Positions 3,079 through 33,910 of a stretch of DNA of 35,069 nucleotides are shown here, piece by piece. The stretch's first letter is position 1, and every line of letters starts with the position of its first letter. The stretch spans positions 1 through 35,069 of IMG/VR virus record IMGVR_UViG_3300025759_000299; one strand, written 5' to 3'. This DNA comes from a virus. The notes beneath the pieces were generated by a model. The model was given only the letters and a program-made list of their open reading frames with translations, ran no database searches and was not told the DNA's origin. The translations under genes were made by a program, and so were the position numbers.

Positions 3079-5139
3079 ATGAATGATGATAAGAACTCAC
3101 CAAACAGCTTGCCAGTACATCAAGACGTTGATGTTAATGTGTATGAAGCTCAAGTTATCTATGAGCTGCCCAAAGACTTGCAGAAGATATTAGATAGTGA
3201 AAACCCCGTCGATATGGTCGATGACGACACTTTGGCCGATTTGATCAATGGGATCGAGGAAGATCGTCAGACCATGAAGCCATACCTAGAGAGGTACAAC
3301 GTTGCACTCAAGCTGGCCAAGATGGATGATGAGAAAGTAGACAAGAATTTTCCATTTCAGGGGGCCTCTAGAGTTATGATGCCCTACGTTATGGAGGCTG
3401 CCTTGGACTTCTGGTCACGAACTACGCCCGAAGTGGTTGAACGAAAGAACATAGCTCAGGCTGAAATATTCTCGAAAGAAGACCCAGAAACGGTAGCGCG
3501 TGGCGATAGAATCTCTGACTTCACTAACTATGATCTACGCAAAGGCATTAGTAATTGGCGCGATGATCAGTCAAAGGCCCTGTTATCCCTTCCAATCACA
3601 GGTATGTACTACAAGAAGATATGGTATGACCCATCGACTGGGAAGCGCCGATCCCAGTTAATTCAACCAGACGAGCTAATCTGTGACCACACAAAAGCCT
3701 CGTTCAAAGACTGCCCGCGTAAGTCGTTCGAATACACGATGACTAAGAGTGAAGTAAGGACAGCAATATTAATGGGGCAGCTTATTGAGTTTGATTATGG
3801 TGAAGATGATGACACTAGAGACGATGTCGAATTCATAGAGTCTCATTGCTTGCTAGACCTAGATGGTGATGGATGCCAAGAGCCGTATGTAGTCACTATA
3901 GCCAAGGATTCAAGCGAGGTCGTTTCCGTATCTGCTCGATTCGATGTTTCAGACGTAACGCTCACTGAAGACAGCAAGGTCGTTTCTATTGATGGCGAGG
4001 CTCTATTTACTCTGACCATTTACATACCAGATCCAGGCGGCTCATTTCTTGGTATGGGGTGGGGAGTACTGCTGTGCGACATGTTCCATTCGATGAATTC
4101 GATCACCCGCCAGCTAATTGATGCAGGAACTCTACAGAATACGGCAATGAATAGCGGCTTCATATCTGTAGGTCGTGGGTTAGGGCCGAATAGCCGAAGC
4201 CGCAAAGGTAGCTTTGAATTGGAAATGGGCAAATTTAAAGCCCTGGAAGCTGACAACTTAGGTCAATCTATATGGCAGCCTAGTTTTAATGGACCCTCTT
4301 CAACGCTGTTCCAACTACTTGAATCGATGAAGGTAGACACGAGGAATGTGGTATCAACTATCCACAACGTTGAGTCTAACCCAGGTGAAGCGGCTGAACT
4401 GTACTTGGCTCGACTTTCACAGGCTCAGAAACTGCCCAACGCTATAAAGATAAACGTATTCAGTGGCATTACTGGCGACTTGCTGCGGTTACAGGAGATT
4501 TACAGGGATTATTTGACTACTGAAGAGTATTCAATGGTTGTTGGCGAAGGATTTAGTTTCGAGCAGGACTTTGACGAGAACTATGTCTCGCTTTGCTTAA
4601 CTGCCGATCCTGCACAAGGTAGCGATGAGGAGCGAGTAGCTAGGGCTAAGATTGTCTTAGAAGAAGCCAAACAAAACCCAGTGCATAACTTACGTGAAGC
4701 ATATAACCGTTATTACAGCGCACTAGGTGTGCGTGATCCTGAACAGATCCTACCAAAGCCTAAACCACAGCAGCCAGACCCGCTAGCAGTAATGCAAGCC
4801 CAGTCTATGGAAAGAATCTCAAAGGCTGAAGAGCTTAGCAGTCAGGCCAAGATGATGTCGTCAATGGCTAGCATGATGAAAGCCCGCGTCGAAATGTTCC
4901 AAGTGGATTCTAAAATTAAGAAGACCGAATCTGAGACATTAAAGAATTTGTCTCAGGTTGATAAAAATGAGCGTGAATTAATGCTCAAAACGTTGAAGCA
5001 AGACTACGAAAACCTAAGAGGTGTTTTTGATGATGCAAGAAAGATATTCGAAACCGACCAAAGCGCAGTTGCTATCAGTACTGAGGGGCAACGAGTTCAA
5101 GGCGATTCAAGCGGCTTACCGCAAGAAACATTCCAGTGA
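3079..5139 (+). CDS. Portal protein, P22/podovirus type (686 aa)
   Basis: The portal forms the dodecameric ring through which DNA enters and leaves the head and on which packaging and tail proteins dock. At 686 residues it has the size of large podovirus portals (P22 gp1 is 725). It shows an acidic N-terminus, a FPFQGASRVMMPYVMEAA segment typical of this portal type, a central wing and stem region, and a long C-terminal helical, Gln/Met/Lys-rich coiled-coil-like tail (about 570-670) resembling the barrel of P22-like portals. It follows the large terminase directly. The last 110 bases are overlapped by the next gene in another frame. The portal call is strong; the P22-type assignment rests on size and on the rest of the tail module. 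Confidence 0.9.
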   Translation: MNDDKNSPNSLPVHQDVDVNVYEAQVIYELPKDLQKILDSENPVDMVDDDTLADLINGIEEDRQTMKPYLERYNVALKLAKMDDEKVDKNFPFQGASRVMMPYVMEAALDFWSRTTPEVVERKNIAQAEIFSKEDPETVARGDRISDFTNYDLRKGISNWRDDQSKALLSLPITGMYYKKIWYDPSTGKRRSQLIQPDELICDHTKASFKDCPRKSFEYTMTKSEVRTAILMGQLIEFDYGEDDDTRDDVEFIESHCLLDLDGDGCQEPYVVTIAKDSSEVVSVSARFDVSDVTLTEDSKVVSIDGEALFTLTIYIPDPGGSFLGMGWGVLLCDMFHSMNSITRQLIDAGTLQNTAMNSGFISVGRGLGPNSRSRKGSFELEMGKFKALEADNLGQSIWQPSFNGPSSTLFQLLESMKVDTRNVVSTIHNVESNPGEAAELYLARLSQAQKLPNAIKINVFSGITGDLLRLQEIYRDYLTTEEYSMVVGEGFSFEQDFDENYVSLCLTADPAQGSDEERVARAKIVLEEAKQNPVHNLREAYNRYYSALGVRDPEQILPKPKPQQPDPLAVMQAQSMERISKAEELSSQAKMMSSMASMMKARVEMFQVDSKIKKTESETLKNLSQVDKNERELMLKTLKQDYENLRGVFDDARKIFETDQSAVAISTEGQRVQGDSSGLPQETFQ

Positions 5140-27199: not shown

Positions 27200-27646
27200 T
27201 TAACTAAAAGGTATGTCGTCCCCGAAATCATCAGTTGCCAACGGTTGCGGTGTCGGTGCCGCTTGCTGATTAGACCTGCCACCTTGATTCGCACTTGTAT
27301 TGTCGTCACGACCGCCAATGAACTGCATTTCATTACCAATAATTTCAGTCGTGTATCTATCTTGACCGTTTTTATCTTGCCATTTGGTAGTTTGCAGCCT
27401 TCCCTCTATATAGACTTGCGAGCCTTTATTGAGGTACTGACCGGCTATCTCCGCAGTCTTACCGAATAGAACAACCCTGTGCCATTCTGTCGCATCCTGT
27501 CGATTTCCTTGCTCATCTTTGGAGCCGAGCGCATTGGTCGCTACGCTTAAATTTGCAACACTAGTGCCGCTTGCCGTCTGCCTGACATCTGGATCTTGGC
27601 CCAATCTGCCCAAGATGATCGCTTTGTTTACTGTGCCTTTAGCCAT
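27200..27646 (-). CDS. ssb: Single-stranded DNA-binding protein (148 aa)
   Basis: OB-fold SSB. The start (AKGTVNKAIILGRLGQDPDVRQTASGTSVANLSVATN), then QDATEWHRVVLFGKTAEIAGQYLNKGSQVYIEGRLQTTKWQDKNGQDRYTTEII and the acidic end DDFGDDIPFS, give an OB domain (1-108), a Gln/Asn/Pro-rich linker and the DDIPF protein-binding tail. It protects single-stranded DNA in replication and recombination and recruits partners through its tail. It overlaps the erf gene by 8 bases, so the two are co-translated. The length is slightly below that of E. coli SSB (178). Confidence 0.93.
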   Translation of the reverse strand: MAKGTVNKAIILGRLGQDPDVRQTASGTSVANLSVATNALGSKDEQGNRQDATEWHRVVLFGKTAEIAGQYLNKGSQVYIEGRLQTTKWQDKNGQDRYTTEIIGNEMQFIGGRDDNTSANQGGRSNQQAAPTPQPLATDDFGDDIPFS

Positions 27647-28217
27647 TCTTTCTTGCCTCTCTTTCCTGTTCTATTATCTTTTTTATTTGCGCTCGATCTG
27701 TAGAGTTTAGGTACTTCCAAGCTTCAGCCACGAAGTCGTTGTCCTTAGCCTCAAATTCAGTTAGTAGCGCATCATCTTCTTTGGCTTGCTTGTATCCGAT
27801 TAGTAGTGCCGCCCACTCCTGATGCTTATTAGGTTTGTGATTGTTTGTTGAATCAGCGTCTTTGGTGTCGTCGGCCAAGAACAAGCCACCAAGCGCATAC
27901 TTACGAGCGTAAGAGCTAGCAGCGCCTGTAATCTGTGATTCATCCATACCCTTCTTCATCACTGGCTCACGAGCGTATGCCGTATTGCTTAGCTTTGCTT
28001 CACCGTACATCAGAGTTGCCGTAGCTTTCACATAGACTCGATCACCAATAGACACTATTTCATCACCTACCACTAAGGCACAGCCACCAAGTAGAGGTTT
28101 AACAGCTTCCAAGATGTCCTCTTGGTTTCTATAAGAGTACTTACCAAAGCTGTTAAATTGACTCTTTGGCGCTTTCAGTGTCTTCTGTATTTCCGCTAAA
28201 CGTTCCGTTATATCCAT
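27639..28217 (-). CDS. erf: Erf-type single-strand annealing recombinase (192 aa)
   Basis: The N-terminal domain matches the ERF family (P22 Erf, 204 residues): KSQFNSFGKYSYRNQEDILEAVKPLL, then VSIGDRVYVKATATL and the conserved GAASSYARKYALGGLFLADDTKDAD. Annealing proteins of this kind join complementary single strands. In P22 the protein circularises or recombines the genome after entry. The C-terminal part is helical and charged (EQEREARKNG). It overlaps ssb by 8 bases and shares 65 bases out of frame with the upstream gene. Synteny with SSB fits a recombination module. Confidence 0.9.
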   Translation of the reverse strand: MDITERLAEIQKTLKAPKSQFNSFGKYSYRNQEDILEAVKPLLGGCALVVGDEIVSIGDRVYVKATATLMYGEAKLSNTAYAREPVMKKGMDESQITGAASSYARKYALGGLFLADDTKDADSTNNHKPNKHQEWAALLIGYKQAKEDDALLTEFEAKDNDFVAEAWKYLNSTDRAQIKKIIEQEREARKNG

Positions 28218-28347
28218 TACTGTTCATTTCCTCTCGTTGGTATTCTAAGTCATAGCCTGCAAGCCTAGCTTTAGACGCATTTTCTGGTATTGCCCGACCT
28301 GCTTTGCAATCTAGCTGCCCTTCAATAAACTCTAGTAAGTCAGTCAT
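28153..28347 (-). CDS. Small hypothetical protein with FxxGxxDCxxG-like start (64 aa)
   Basis: I place the start at ATG 28347, with AAGGG about 6 bases upstream. It overlaps the repressor gene by 8 bases and the Erf gene by 65 bases. The first half, TDLLEFIEGQLDCKAGRAIPENASKARLAGYDLEY, resembles small phage proteins with the pattern F-x2-G-x2-D-C-x2-G-x-P. Its tail (SNGYNGTFSGNTEDTESAKES) is polar. Function is unknown. The long out-of-frame overlap with Erf means mutations in the tail would also change Erf. Confidence 0.6.
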   Translation of the reverse strand: MTDLLEFIEGQLDCKAGRAIPENASKARLAGYDLEYQREEMNSNGYNGTFSGNTEDTESAKESI

Positions 28348-28567
28348 CGTCACCCTTTTCCTCAGCCCTCTTAACCAGCCGCCAAACTTTAACGTTAAGC
28401 ACTTTAGCGATGCGTATTAGAGCGCGTATGCTGTTTAGTTTAATGCTCCCACCATCGTCTAAAATGCGACTGATGTATCCCCGTGTATAGCCTGCCTGAT
28501 CAGCTAACTCTGATCTGGTAACGCCTTTTTTGCTCATTTCGTTTAATATAGCTTTTCTAAGATCCAT
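28340..28567 (-). CDS. XRE-family HTH repressor (75 aa)
   Basis: A Cro/CI-type helix-turn-helix protein: LRKAILNEMSKKGVTRSELADQAGYTRGYISRILDDGGSIKLNSIRALIRIAKVLNVKVWRLVKRAEE. The HTH proper is RSELADQAGYTRGYISRIL (about 17-35), followed by a helical dimer-type part. It lacks a separate oligomerisation or autoproteolytic domain, unlike lambda CI (236 residues), so it is Cro-size. It is the first gene of the leftward recombination operon and faces the divergent control region with three operator-like sites, a typical regulator position. Autoregulation is likely. Whether it acts in lysogeny or only in timing is unclear. Confidence 0.85.
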   Translation of the reverse strand: MDLRKAILNEMSKKGVTRSELADQAGYTRGYISRILDDGGSIKLNSIRALIRIAKVLNVKVWRLVKRAEEKGDDD

Positions 28568-30181: not shown

Positions 30182-30287
30182 TTGATAGGGCTATATCTTA
30201 CATTTCCTACAAATAATTTAAAATAAACCTTGCTTTCTTTAAATAGTTGGGTATAATGATTACATCAACTAGAGATACCGAGGCAAA
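30182..30287 (+). repeat. Direct repeat copy B (106 bp)
   Basis: Identical over 106 bases to 29224-29329. An ATG at 30172 makes a 14-residue frame ending RAISYISYK, the same end as the 39-residue gene before copy A. Directly upstream (30140-30167) CTACGC and GCGTAG form a weak 6-bp hairpin with a 16-base loop. Confidence 0.95.
30230..30257 (+). promoter_or_regulatory. Duplicated promoter, copy B
   Basis: -35 TTGCTT (30230-30235), 16-base spacer, -10 TATAAT (30252-30257), identical to copy A. It drives the 59-residue and small HTH genes. Confidence 0.75.
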
Positions 30288-30291
30288 TAAA

Positions 30292-30471
30292 ATGGAAACT
30301 ATCAACAAATCAACAACTAACAACACTGCAACTTATTACTGGGACGCTAAAAGCGAGCTTTTCACCACTTTTGATGATACTCGCTTAAGCTTCCAGCCTA
30401 CACACAAAATTATCGTTGATGCTGACCTTTACGCTGATGAGCTTGATGCAATTTTTGTGGAGGTTATTTAA
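30292..30471 (+). CDS. Small early protein behind promoter copy B (59 aa)
   Basis: The start is ATG 30292, in the same place relative to the repeat as the 52-residue gene is to copy A; an upstream frame start lies within the promoter and is rejected. It reads ETINKSTTNNTATYYWDAKSELFTTFDDT, then HKIIVDADLYADELDAIFVEVI: an acidic mostly beta-type protein. It shares no similarity with the gene behind copy A. The stop shares one base with the HTH start. Function unknown. Confidence 0.6.
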   Translation: METINKSTTNNTATYYWDAKSELFTTFDDTRLSFQPTHKIIVDADLYADELDAIFVEVI

Positions 30472-30647
30472 TGACACCAGCACAGCAAGCAAAAAGCGTA
30501 GGGCTAAAAAGCCTCACTGCTGTTTCTGAAATAACAGGCGTTAGTTTAAACACGTTGACGAACTGGCATAAACATAAACCTAGGCTTTTTGCAATTGTAT
30601 TGCTGGGGTGTGTTTTGAAAATAGATGAAAATAGCTCTAATGGTTAG
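30471..30647 (+). CDS. Small HTH-like DNA-binding protein, rightward paralogue (58 aa)
   Basis: GGAGGT lies 6 bases before ATG 30471. TPAQQAKSVGLKSLTAVSEITGVSLNTLTNWHKHKP is a helix-turn-helix with LTAVSEITGVSLNTLTNWHKH as core, followed by RLFAIVLLGCVLK. It is paralogous to the leftward protein at 25286-25468 (VAEIYGVTTETLRNYDKHEP). It ends the second unit after the duplicated promoter. The proteins probably regulate neighbouring early operons. Its DNA target is not visible. Confidence 0.7.
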   Translation: MTPAQQAKSVGLKSLTAVSEITGVSLNTLTNWHKHKPRLFAIVLLGCVLKIDENSSNG

Positions 30648-30684: not shown

Positions 30685-30717
30685 AAAAAACCCCGTTGAC
30701 CAAATCGGAAAACGGGG
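30685..30717 (-). terminator. Strong intrinsic terminator on the minus strand
   Basis: Read on the minus strand: CCCCGTT, 13-base loop, AACGGGG, then TTTTTT. A 7-bp GC-rich stem and a 6-base T-run, the best terminator in the window. There is no annotated minus-strand gene to its right, so it ends a transcript of its own. Confidence 0.85.
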
Positions 30718-30791
30718 CTATATTACTTAAATGCCGGTTCGCACCCGGTCTGACATTACAAACCATGAAAAATGACAAACCGGTCCGGCGT
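30685..30791 (-). ncRNA. Candidate small structured RNA (about 107 nt)
   Basis: A minus-strand unit with a good promoter (30798-30825), a start near 30791 and a strong terminator. The body forms a long hairpin: arms 30771-30783 and 30745-30757 (CCGGTTTGTCATT with AATGTCAGACCGG, 12 of 13 paired counting one G-U), with a 13-base loop. An alternative pairing uses GAACCGG near 30734. No good reading frame with a ribosome-binding site is present. It lies opposite to the rightward early region and about 340 bases before the helicase operon. C4- or CI-type antisense RNAs regulate P1/P4-like phages; that parallel is only a suggestion. Confidence 0.65.
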
Positions 30792-30797
30792 AAAGCC

Positions 30798-30825
30798 ATT
30801 ATAGCCAAATCCCATTTTTCCTCAA
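30798..30825 (-). promoter_or_regulatory. Promoter of the candidate small RNA
   Basis: On the minus strand: -35 TTGAGG (30820-30825), 16-base spacer, -10 TATAAT (30798-30803). The -10 is perfect. The start would be near 30791, which gives a transcript of about 107 bases to the terminator. Confidence 0.72.
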
Positions 30826-31134
30826 GTTCTGTTCAGACCTACCGCGCATGAGAATCATTCTTTGTGGGCGTGACACTCTATAAAGCAAGTTCCACACACT
30901 GCCAGAGCTTAGGGCGTTAAATAAGCAATCAAGGTAACACCTGCAAGTTGAATGACGTTAGAGCGCGGATAAACAGCGGTAATGTCAGGGTTAATGGTCT
31001 GGACGTACCATCATGGATGAGAAACGGTCGCTGATACTGTTCAGCTTGCTTGTAAACCAATAGAGTGGCTAGGAATAAGGGGTTTGCTATATCCCTGACT
31101 AACCGCTCTAAGATGACCTTGTGGAGAAAACAAA
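30826..31134. other. Gene-free leader upstream of the replication genes
   Basis: No reading frame of this stretch combines length, start and a ribosome-binding site; the longest one, on the minus strand, looks like chance. It contains several short frames of 12-18 codons and no clear promoter. It may be a long 5' leader of the helicase-primase transcript, a replication origin or a regulatory RNA target. I see no tandem iterons. Confidence 0.4.
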
Positions 31135-31383
31135 ATGATAATGCCAAAGGTACGCCACAAGCACGATGAGAGGTGGCTTGACGAGAGGTTTGCGGAGCTG
31201 GTGGGCATCACTGGCTTAAACCACGGCAAAGCGATTGCTGAGAAGTACAGCGCAGTCTATGAGGTAGAATACGAACTAGAGGCAACAGAGCATAAGAAGC
31301 ACAATAGAGCACGACATGAAGCTAATTCAAGACTGGTCAAGGTAATTAGAGGATTAAAAGAAAGGCCAGTAAAACCAACCTAA
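31135..31383 (+). CDS. Hypothetical protein preceding the helicase (82 aa)
   Basis: GGAG 8 bases upstream favours ATG 31135 over ATG 31141. The protein is basic and helical: PKVRHKHDERWLDERFAELVGITGLNHGKAIAEKYSAVYEVEYELEATEHKKHNRARHEANSRLVKVI. The segment from AIAEKYSAVYE to NRARHEANSRL recalls small phage proteins with a conserved A-E-x-Y-x-x-VYE and an RR-A-N-RL-like helix that often precede replication genes. DNA or helicase-loading interaction is possible. No firm family. Confidence 0.65.
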   Translation: MIMPKVRHKHDERWLDERFAELVGITGLNHGKAIAEKYSAVYEVEYELEATEHKKHNRARHEANSRLVKVIRGLKERPVKPT

Positions 31384-31406: not shown

Positions 31407-32975
31407 ATGCAATTTGAACAACTACGACCAAAACAACAGAAAGCTATAGCCATGCTTCGCCAGGGGTGGAAGCAAGAAAGAACACACCTAATTTCAGCAG
31501 CGGTAGGATTCGGTAAGACAGCAGTAGCATCTTATTTGGTACAGTCATTTATAGAGCGCGGCAAAAGAGTGCTATTTGTAGCTCCCTATACCGTGCTGGT
31601 AACTCAGACAGCTGCAAGGTTTGAGGAATACGGACTACCTAAAGCGGGCCTGATCTGGCGTGACCATCCAGATTATGACCCTAAAGCCCTAATTCAGATA
31701 GCTAGTGCTGACACGTTGATCAGGCGTGACTTTCCAAGTGATATTGATTTGATGATTGTTGATGAGTGTCATATCAGGCGTGTCAAATTACTAGAGATTA
31801 TCGAGGAGGCCACTTTTCCAGTGGTAGGCCTAAGTGGTACGCCATTCGCCCCGTGGCTGGGTAAATACTATGGTCATTTCGTCAAGCCAACGACAATGCG
31901 AGAGCTGATTAATCAGAAGTTCTTATCTGACTATGAGTTTTACGCACCAACCAAGCCGGATCTAAGTAATGTCAAGCAGAGCAATACTGCTGGTTTTGGT
32001 ATGGATTACAAAGAGCAGGAAGTGGCTGAAATCATGGGTGATTCAGTCATAGTTGGGAATATAGTTGAGAACTGGCTAGAAAATGGCAAGGATTTGCCGA
32101 CAATTGCATTTTGCTGCAACGTTGCCCACGCTAATGAAGTATGTAACCGCTTCAACGGTTCTGGGATCACAGCAGAAGTAATGACAGCCAAGACGCCACA
32201 CGATGAGCGTCAGGACATTATTTATAGGTACGAAAGCGGCATAACAAAAGTAATATGTAATGTTGGTGTGCTGGTCGCTGGGTTCGACGCTGATGTCAGA
32301 TGTATTATTTATGCGAGGCCAACAAAATCAGAAATCAGATGGTTGCAGTGCCTTGGTCGCGGTCTAAGGATAGCTAAAGGCAAGGACGTGCTTATAGTGT
32401 TTGATCATTCTGGAACAGTTCACAATCTAGGATACCCAGATTCAATTGAATACGACGAGCTAAAGAGCACCAATGACGGCAAAGACACGCCCAAACAGAT
32501 ACAGAAAGAAATAGAGAAAATAGAAGCTAAGCCCAAAGAATGCCCAAAATGCACTTACATGAAGCCAGCAAAGACGCCCATTTGCCCTAAATGTGGCTTT
32601 AAGTCTGTTGGTGGCCAAGATGTTGATGTTGACGAAAGCCGACAAATAGAAAAGCTAAAGGGTAAGCTGGCACCAACAAACAAGGACAAACAGCAGTTTT
32701 ATAGTGAGTTGCTGGGCTATATACGAGAAATGAGGGCCAAAGGAAAGCTATATTCTGAAGGCTGGGCAGCCCATATGTTTAAGAATAAATTTAGTCACTG
32801 GCCAAACAAGTTCAACAAATCACCATCAACAGCATCAATCGAGACAAGAAACTACATTAAGTCGCAGAACATACGTCGCGCCAAGTCAAAGACACCACTA
32901 ATAAGTAAAGAGACTAGAGAAAGAGGCTCAAAGGTTCTCAGGGAGCTTAGGGATATGCTAGGGGGTAAAGCATGA
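31407..32975 (+). CDS. Superfamily 2 helicase with C-terminal zinc ribbon (522 aa)
   Basis: A DNA-dependent ATPase that unwinds or remodels DNA. Motifs in order: Q-like start (LRPKQQKAI), Walker A AAVGFGKT (31-38), DEAH-type DECH (119-122), SGTP (143-146), a long middle, VAGFD (290-294) and motif VI QCLGRGLR (314-321). A zinc ribbon follows with CPKC (379-382) and CPKC (393-396). The C-terminal 120 residues are basic (KFSHWPNKFNKSP, RGSKVLRELRDMLG) and probably bind DNA. AAGGGG lies about 8 bases upstream of the start. It overlaps the primase gene by 4 bases, forming a helicase-primase pair as in many phage replication modules. It is not a replicative RecA-fold (DnaB-type) helicase. Confidence 0.9.
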   Translation: MQFEQLRPKQQKAIAMLRQGWKQERTHLISAAVGFGKTAVASYLVQSFIERGKRVLFVAPYTVLVTQTAARFEEYGLPKAGLIWRDHPDYDPKALIQIASADTLIRRDFPSDIDLMIVDECHIRRVKLLEIIEEATFPVVGLSGTPFAPWLGKYYGHFVKPTTMRELINQKFLSDYEFYAPTKPDLSNVKQSNTAGFGMDYKEQEVAEIMGDSVIVGNIVENWLENGKDLPTIAFCCNVAHANEVCNRFNGSGITAEVMTAKTPHDERQDIIYRYESGITKVICNVGVLVAGFDADVRCIIYARPTKSEIRWLQCLGRGLRIAKGKDVLIVFDHSGTVHNLGYPDSIEYDELKSTNDGKDTPKQIQKEIEKIEAKPKECPKCTYMKPAKTPICPKCGFKSVGGQDVDVDESRQIEKLKGKLAPTNKDKQQFYSELLGYIREMRAKGKLYSEGWAAHMFKNKFSHWPNKFNKSPSTASIETRNYIKSQNIRRAKSKTPLISKETRERGSKVLRELRDMLGGKA

Positions 32976-33910
32976 AAACGACTGATTTCGTTAAAGGTAA
33001 AACCCCGCAAATTTTAGAGTATTACAGCTTGCCGCCCGTCAATCCAAGGCACCATCACAAAGGCGAGTGCCCAATGTGCGGGAGAAAAGGGAAGCTAAGG
33101 ATAGATGATCAAGACGGCTCAGGGTCATGGATTTGCGTGTGTGGTAGCGGTGATTTATGGGAGCTCTTGAAGCTATCAACGGGCAAGGACTTTAAGACTC
33201 TAGCAAAAGAGATTGATCAAGCCTTTGGCAACGCTTTCTCAACTGAGCATCAAACACCAAAAGTAAACAACAATTTAAACCAGGCTGTAGCGCGATTCAA
33301 GTCACTATCTGTAATAAGAGGTACTGACGCTGAAAGATATCTCAATTCAAGAGGTATAACACAACTACCCACGGGAGGCGTTAAATACAGCGCAGGTGAA
33401 TACAACTCTGAAACTGGTGGTAAGTTACCATGTATATACGCAATCGCCTCAAATGAGTATTCAGAGGCCATACAGCGGCATGTTACGTACCTGGACGGGG
33501 CAACAAAAGCAAAGGTTGAAGTGCAGAAAAAAGCACTATCACTACAGGAGTATAGTGGCTCAATTTCAGTCAAGTTATTCCAACCAAAATCAACACTAGG
33601 AATAGCTGAGGGCATCGAAACGGCATTGAGTGCCCACCAGCTCTACAAAGTACCTGTCTGGTCAACTCTCAACTCTTCACTGATGAAGAGGTTCAAAGCA
33701 CCTTCCGGCGTCGATACGCTCTACATATTTGCAGATAATGACACTAATGGAACCGGCTTGGCTGCTGCTTTTGCCTGTGCCAACAAGAATATATTAAGTA
33801 ACAACGACGTACGGCGGGTAATTGTGCGATGGCCAGAACTGGAAGATTACAACGACATGCTCATGAGTGGCTGCAAAGTGTTCGAATGGGAATTAACCAG
33901 AGAGTTATAA
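32972..33910 (+). CDS. TOPRIM primase with N-terminal zinc finger (312 aa)
   Basis: Primases start DNA chains with short RNA or DNA primers. This one has a zinc site near the start (ECPMCGRKGKL, residues 32-42, and WICVCGSGD, 53-61: CPMC and CVC). A linker part follows, then a TOPRIM domain with LGIAEGIETALSAHQLY (catalytic Glu213) and LYIFADNDTNGTG (Asp255, Asp257). Total length and architecture fit phage P4-alpha-like or T7-like primase domains without a fused helicase; a DECH helicase is encoded immediately upstream (4-base overlap). A DnaB-type helicase is not seen in this window, so the phage may rely on a host one or encode it elsewhere. Confidence 0.88.
   Translation: MKTTDFVKGKTPQILEYYSLPPVNPRHHHKGECPMCGRKGKLRIDDQDGSGSWICVCGSGDLWELLKLSTGKDFKTLAKEIDQAFGNAFSTEHQTPKVNNNLNQAVARFKSLSVIRGTDAERYLNSRGITQLPTGGVKYSAGEYNSETGGKLPCIYAIASNEYSEAIQRHVTYLDGATKAKVEVQKKALSLQEYSGSISVKLFQPKSTLGIAEGIETALSAHQLYKVPVWSTLNSSLMKRFKAPSGVDTLYIFADNDTNGTGLAAAFACANKNILSNNDVRRVIVRWPELEDYNDMLMSGCKVFEWELTREL

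Follow-up and report, generated by a model that had tools for sequence, protein, structure and literature searches.

A predicted minus-strand small RNA, OOP-like in layout, ahead of the replication genes of an uncultured lambdoid phage

Several small antisense or regulatory RNAs are known from phages and plasmids near genes for early control or replication. The C4 RNAs of phages P1 and P7 and the CI RNA of P4 come from the operon strand itself, and the P4 CI RNA is processed from the leader transcript of the replication and immunity operon on that same strand. In plasmid ColE1, a long structured RNA fronts the replication region, and RNA I, of ~108 nt, is antisense near its 5' end. The layout closest to the locus described here is that of the lambda oop unit, which runs leftward between cII and O from TTGAGT-17-CATAAT to a 7-bp terminator stem followed by T6; the T-run comes 77 bases after the -10 hexamer ends. 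The oop RNA targets the cII mRNA and the RNase III cut falls 12 nt outside the coding region (PMC5869508), so overlap with a coding region is not essential to the mechanism. Convergent activity of its promoter, pO, limits pR readthrough into the origin and affects replication, on which the oop RNA as such has little influence (PMC3985674). In the P22 record, an oop promoter and an oop terminator are annotated in the interval from c1 to the replication genes, and in the Salmonella prophage BTP1 an RNA in the same position, OOP-BTP1, was detected by RNA-seq (PMC7067206). Folding gave a 5' hairpin followed by a terminator hairpin for both the lambda and the P22 RNA. Here we analysed a viral record of 35,069 nt (the window, meaning the whole of this stretch). 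Judging by its sequence, the phage very probably makes a 107-base minus-strand RNA in the interval that separates its early control genes from those for DNA copying.

The minus-strand unit and its gene setting

The record is lambdoid in character, as PHROG and Pfam scans of some of its genes indicated. The same scans placed the terminase, portal and head genes on the rightward strand and a leftward block at 27200-28567 with SSB, an Erf recombinase and a small HTH repressor, after which come small rightward early genes; the phage is probably temperate. The last gene before the small RNA (30471-30647, plus strand) encodes a 58-aa HTH protein of PHROG 409, the P22 Cro family (match at 1.8e-5, compared to 1.7e-25 for P22 Cro itself). 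Ahead of the two last early ORFs stands TTGCTT-16-TATAAT (30229-30257, plus strand), likely a rightward promoter, from which readthrough would be the antisense target of the small RNA. The replication operon, assigned by PHROG scan, starts with an 82-aa PHROG 852 protein (31135-31383, plus strand) and continues with a DNA helicase (PHROG 16; 31407-32975, plus strand) and a DNA primase (PHROG 510; 32972-33910, plus strand). The PHROG 852 gene recurs immediately 5' of this helicase in Klebsiella, Salmonella (Fels-1), Vibrio and other phages (in contig L003 at about 3112-3370), and its product is a candidate replication accessory protein. Between the PHROG 409 and PHROG 852 genes lies a non-coding gap of 487 bases, and the small RNA occupies its left part.

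All the elements of the complete transcription unit that had been predicted from the letters of this DNA are in place on the minus strand. A -35 hexamer TTGAGG (30820-30825, four of six consensus bases) is followed after a 16-nt spacer by a consensus -10 hexamer TATAAT (30798-30803), and transcription would likely start at A30791. The predicted RNA of 107 nt (30685-30791) would end at an intrinsic terminator (30685-30717) consisting of CCCCGTT (30717-30711), a 13-nt loop, AACGGGG (30697-30691) and T6 (30690-30685), i.e. a 7-bp stem with its T-run. Its 5' part (30733-30789) forms a hairpin with an outer clamp, GCCGG (30789-30785) with CCGGC (30737-30733), and a long imperfect stem between the arms CCGGTTTGTCATT (30783-30771) and AATGTCAGACCGG (30757-30745); folding also yields this stem, which the original prediction had read by its arms. 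Likewise, the position and strand of the unit fit the proposal that it is antisense to any rightward transcript crossing from the early to the replication genes, and the absence of a frame with a ribosome-binding site on this strand was borne out, as no SD-like sequence precedes the ATG at 30766, the frame of which stays open through the terminator. A coding function was dropped because there is no ribosome-binding site; a tRNA or tmRNA was also considered and dropped.

When folded as the minus strand, the RNA forms two hairpins at -39.6 kcal/mol (z = -3.6, with 0 of 200 shuffles as good), whereas its plus-strand complement reaches only -32.6 kcal/mol. Taken by itself, the 5' hairpin scores z = -2.4 as minus-strand RNA and z = -1.9 as plus-strand RNA; 4 of 400 shuffles fold as well. 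One U.G pair of the long stem would turn into an A.C mismatch if the plus strand were read, and the T-run is of use to the minus strand alone; both points support the minus orientation. On the plus strand, a putative promoter TTGACC-17-TATATT (30696-30724, a 10/12 match) overlaps the unit; RNA from it would start at about 30731, and its first ~60 nt would be complementary to the 5' hairpin of the small RNA.

How often would such a unit arise by chance? Promoter-like matches alone numbered 10 in the region versus 6.0 +/- 2.4 expected, which is not significant, so a lone promoter-like match says little here. We therefore counted strict units, in which a promoter of at least 10/12 has, 50-250 bases further on, a perfect GC-rich stem with a run of five or more T (a terminator rule with loops of up to 8 misses the 13-nt loop of the small RNA's terminator). 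The small-RNA unit was the only strict unit on either strand of the window, none of 60 shuffled windows contained any, and 472 kb of other loci contained four; these criteria were chosen after the unit had been seen, which biases the shuffle and rarity figures somewhat towards it. In a control run at a promoter cut-off of 9/12, this detector found oop and nothing else in the 2.4-kb cII-O stretch of lambda; it did not recover the annotated P22 oop. The unit is real, non-random and of ordinary anatomy.

Relatives of the locus and the neighbouring RNA elements

Searches for DNA similarity to the small RNA in phages, plasmids, E. coli genomes and the viral scans found no relative, only 28-base chance matches. 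A portal-protein search retrieved one contig with an identical portal, the 26.4 kb of which stop short of the region, with only a 15-base match there. The PHROG 852 search for further relatives returned contig L002 alone. This nearest relative (helicase 74% identical, PHROG 852 protein 54%) has no minus-strand unit; at the start of its gap a plus-strand promoter, TTGCAA-16-TATAAT, precedes an RNA that has GCC-T7 as its end. In contig L038, read as its reverse complement, a minus-strand promoter (GTGACT-16-TATAAT) and a strong terminator occupy the same place, with an early ORF on one side and the structured RNA described below on the other. The predicted RNA of this unit is about 72 nt long and unrelated in sequence to that of the window. 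L038 is lambdoid-like, and the unit there has an HTH gene on its upstream side and, by eye, a possible replication protein downstream; the contig has no listed equivalent of the plus-strand promoter-like site at 30696-30724.

From 30852 rightward the window and L002 align again despite the lack of coding sequence. Alignment and covariation define here a conserved multi-pseudoknot RNA element on the plus strand (30943-31111), which we call RNA-B; it starts some 150 bases further right than the unit and was absent from the original prediction. Its helices are P0 (30943-30953/31039-31049), P1 (30958-30965/31104-31111), P4 (30974-30978/31029-31033) and P2 (30984-30990/31093-31099); P0 and P1 interlock, as do P4 and P2, and the core reads GGATAAACAGCG...GCTGATA. 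Pattern searches found this core in five more viral contigs, which makes at least seven with the window and L002, and pattern search or alignment located the copies at L002:3515-3699, L038:2071-2232 (minus), L039:3186-3378 (minus), L049:6949-7111, L068:7656-7817 and L070:8536-8700 (minus). In a six-sequence alignment with the variable linker removed, 91.2% of the cells paired, compared to 31-38% when partners were shifted by one to three columns. Both sides had changed in 12 of the 31 pairs, most of them in P0, and 0 of 500 shuffles reached the covariation score. A covariance model of P0, P4 and the P3 hairpin found L038, which had been left out of the model, at E 0.003.

No Rfam family matched RNA-B, even at relaxed thresholds. 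The RNA-B pattern gave eight matches in the genome contigs, those listed being chance-like, inside genes and without the RNA-B helices, and the model gave a single weak match among 369 gammaproteobacterial genomes, inside a chromosomal gene, which we took as chance. RNA-B precedes replication genes in the window, in L002 and probably in L038; from the sequence it precedes unassigned small genes in L039 and L070 and apparently lies among structural genes in L049 and L068. The order of its P4, P2 and P3 helices recalls the topology of HDV-like ribozymes, a likeness of helix order alone. GOLLD and ROOL, large ornate phage RNAs of unknown function (PMC12286853), are likewise phage-borne with multiple pseudoknots, but the conserved core of RNA-B is much smaller and it matched neither of them in Rfam, even at relaxed thresholds. 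With its strong covariation and no Rfam entry, RNA-B is a concrete candidate for a new phage RNA family.

In L002, L039, L068 and L070, RNA-B is preceded by another plus-strand RNA, RNA-A (L002:3189-3335 by pairing analysis), the two helices of which interleave in the pseudoknot order A-B-A'-B', with a terminator-like U-run close after the last arm. The positions in L068 and L070 come from reading the sequence, as the pairing script missed them; promoter-like sites stand ahead of RNA-A in L002, L039 and L070. RNA-A is absent from the window and from L038, each of which has a minus-strand unit there instead. One tentative idea, which we regard as doubtful, is that the slot upstream of RNA-B holds exchangeable regulatory RNAs, either a plus-strand pseudoknot RNA that has a promoter of its own and a terminator-like end, or a minus-strand antisense RNA, and that these control the production or folding of RNA-B, which would itself be a new class of structured phage RNA. 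The unusual part of the locus is RNA-B together with this apparent swapping of the regulatory RNAs in front of it.

Two further groups of phages have other elements upstream of their replication genes. Vibrio and Pseudoalteromonas relatives (L032:3240-3594, L036:2546-2840) carry AT-rich DNA with iteron-like repeats, recognised by eye, and then repL, in the place that RNA-B and PHROG 852 take in the window and L002. A group with a distant helicase (31-35% identity) has a plus-strand promoter and terminator unit of about 120 nt, TTGACA/G-18-TATATT with CCCCCAG...CTGGGGGT5, 2-2.3 kb upstream of the helicase (L017:484-608, L018:1881-2005, L028:1740-1873), possibly a separate small RNA; the same terminator stem also occurs in L016, L020, L021, L023 and L029.

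Possible modes of action

By analogy with lambda OOP, we consider the small RNA to be a phage-encoded, cis-acting antisense RNA, with a probability of roughly 0.55. Early rightward transcription would pass the Cro-like gene, enter the gap and run on through RNA-B into the replication operon. Meanwhile a short two-hairpin RNA would be made from the leftward promoter, which lies shortly before the replication segment, and would stop at the terminator just past the Cro-family gene, and the rightward transcript would contain a perfect complement to all 107 bases of it. The duplex might be cut by an RNase III-type activity in the intercistronic region from the Cro-like gene to the structured leader, and/or the converging polymerases might collide; either route could lower or time readthrough into the replication genes, or shorten the upstream message. 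No trans target in the window rose above chance (13 of 27 shuffled RNAs paired as well), and thus a cis role is likelier than a trans role.

The original prediction had pointed to immunity or timing RNAs of the C4 and CI kind, and this proposal fared poorly. A short hairpin RNA near early genes in a probably temperate phage would suit it; however, no Rfam family reached its curated threshold in the window, the suggested covariance search with the C4 family (RF01695) returned nothing even up to E = 10, and the suggested scan for antisense pairing found no duplex better than shuffled RNA elsewhere in the window. C4 would require complementary segments in the leader of an ant-like operon, and no second complementary copy, in a leader or elsewhere, exceeded chance. 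P4 CI RNA does not fit as a model since the unit lies on the strand opposite to the operon and has its own promoter and terminator. We therefore regard a C4- or CI-type immunity RNA as very improbable. Searching Rfam with the small RNA and with the adjoining region, both at the gathering thresholds and at relaxed ones, gave nothing credible; plant and animal microRNA matches scored far below the cut-off.

Could the small RNA instead act on a plus-strand RNA that starts within the unit? In a control like that of ColE1, it would pair with the 5' end of an RNA from the promoter-like site at 30696-30724, alter the folding or processing of RNA-B and so gate replication. The complementary first 60 nt, the RNA-B lying downstream and before replication genes in the window, L002 and probably L038, and the four relatives that hold a pseudoknot-order plus-strand RNA with a terminal U-run in that place are all consistent with such gating. 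But the plus promoter is a 10/12 match only, of which about six are expected by chance in the region, and L038 has none. Moreover, since L049 and L068 have RNA-B away from replication genes, a role in replication would not apply to all its copies, and the pairing of the small RNA with 30850-31134 (-44.2 kcal/mol) is not unusual given the best values for shuffled RNAs over all windows (-49 to -62). We consider this control unlikely.

It is also conceivable, at similarly long odds, that the promoter and not the RNA matters, the minus-strand promoter and terminator forming a roadblock of convergent transcription. The small-RNA sequences of the window and L038 differ despite their same place, and lambda offers a precedent in which pO activity limits pR readthrough while the oop RNA has little effect on replication (PMC3985674). 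A roadblock has no need, however, of a long 5' hairpin that only 4 of 400 shuffles match. Finally, the CCGG-rich inverted repeat might be a DNA-level site for an initiator or regulator, with the promoter- and terminator-like features incidental. Four CCGG-containing motifs lie within 57 bp, and the iteron-like repeats upstream of repL in the Vibrio and Pseudoalteromonas relatives occupy the corresponding stretch. Yet the motifs are irregularly spaced, and chance would not be expected to pair a consensus -10 hexamer with a terminator this strong and directional; we regard a DNA-level site as improbable.

Comparison with known antisense systems

Among the known systems, the best sub-threshold Rfam shape match was the Bacillus sRNA ncr1175 (RF02450), with a hairpin, a linker and a terminator, but it scored 26.2 bits against a gathering score of 60 and the match is to a generic two-hairpin shape. 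C4 (RF01695; phages P1, P7 and P22) is likewise a small phage antisense RNA with hairpins; it is encoded in the operon leader, while the RNA of the window is encoded against the operon. ColE1 RNA I offers an analogy in size and in placement relative to a structured RNA before the replication genes, although the phage uses helicase-primase replication and the plus-strand start here is putative.

The likeness to OOP extends further. As in lambda, P22 and BTP1, a leftward promoter stands at the left edge of the replication genes, and in the window, as in lambda, this promoter and an intrinsic terminator lie between early regulators and replication genes. The -35 hexamer is TTGAGG where lambda pO has TTGAGT, the RNA is short (107 nt versus about 77 nt in lambda) and would be antisense to the early rightward message, and its 5' hairpin plus intrinsic terminator hairpin fits the arrangement of the lambda and P22 RNAs. 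In contrast to lambda, the gene upstream belongs to the Cro family (PHROG 409) and not to the CII family. The RNA does not overlap this gene, the stop codon (30647) and the RNA end (30685) being 38 nt apart, whereas that of lambda ends inside the gene, and between the unit and the PHROG 852 gene that opens the replication operon lies a conserved structured RNA of ~170 nt. Since it neither overlaps a cII-family gene nor shows any significant DNA match to known oop RNAs in the phage collection, the small RNA is best filed as OOP-like in layout and not as an OOP homologue. If it is transcribed, this uncultured phage adds to a handful of known cases in which a backward small RNA guards the way into the replication genes, and its Cro-like rather than CII-like neighbour suggests that the oop layout has come up more than once, its sequence and the genes beside it differing from case to case.
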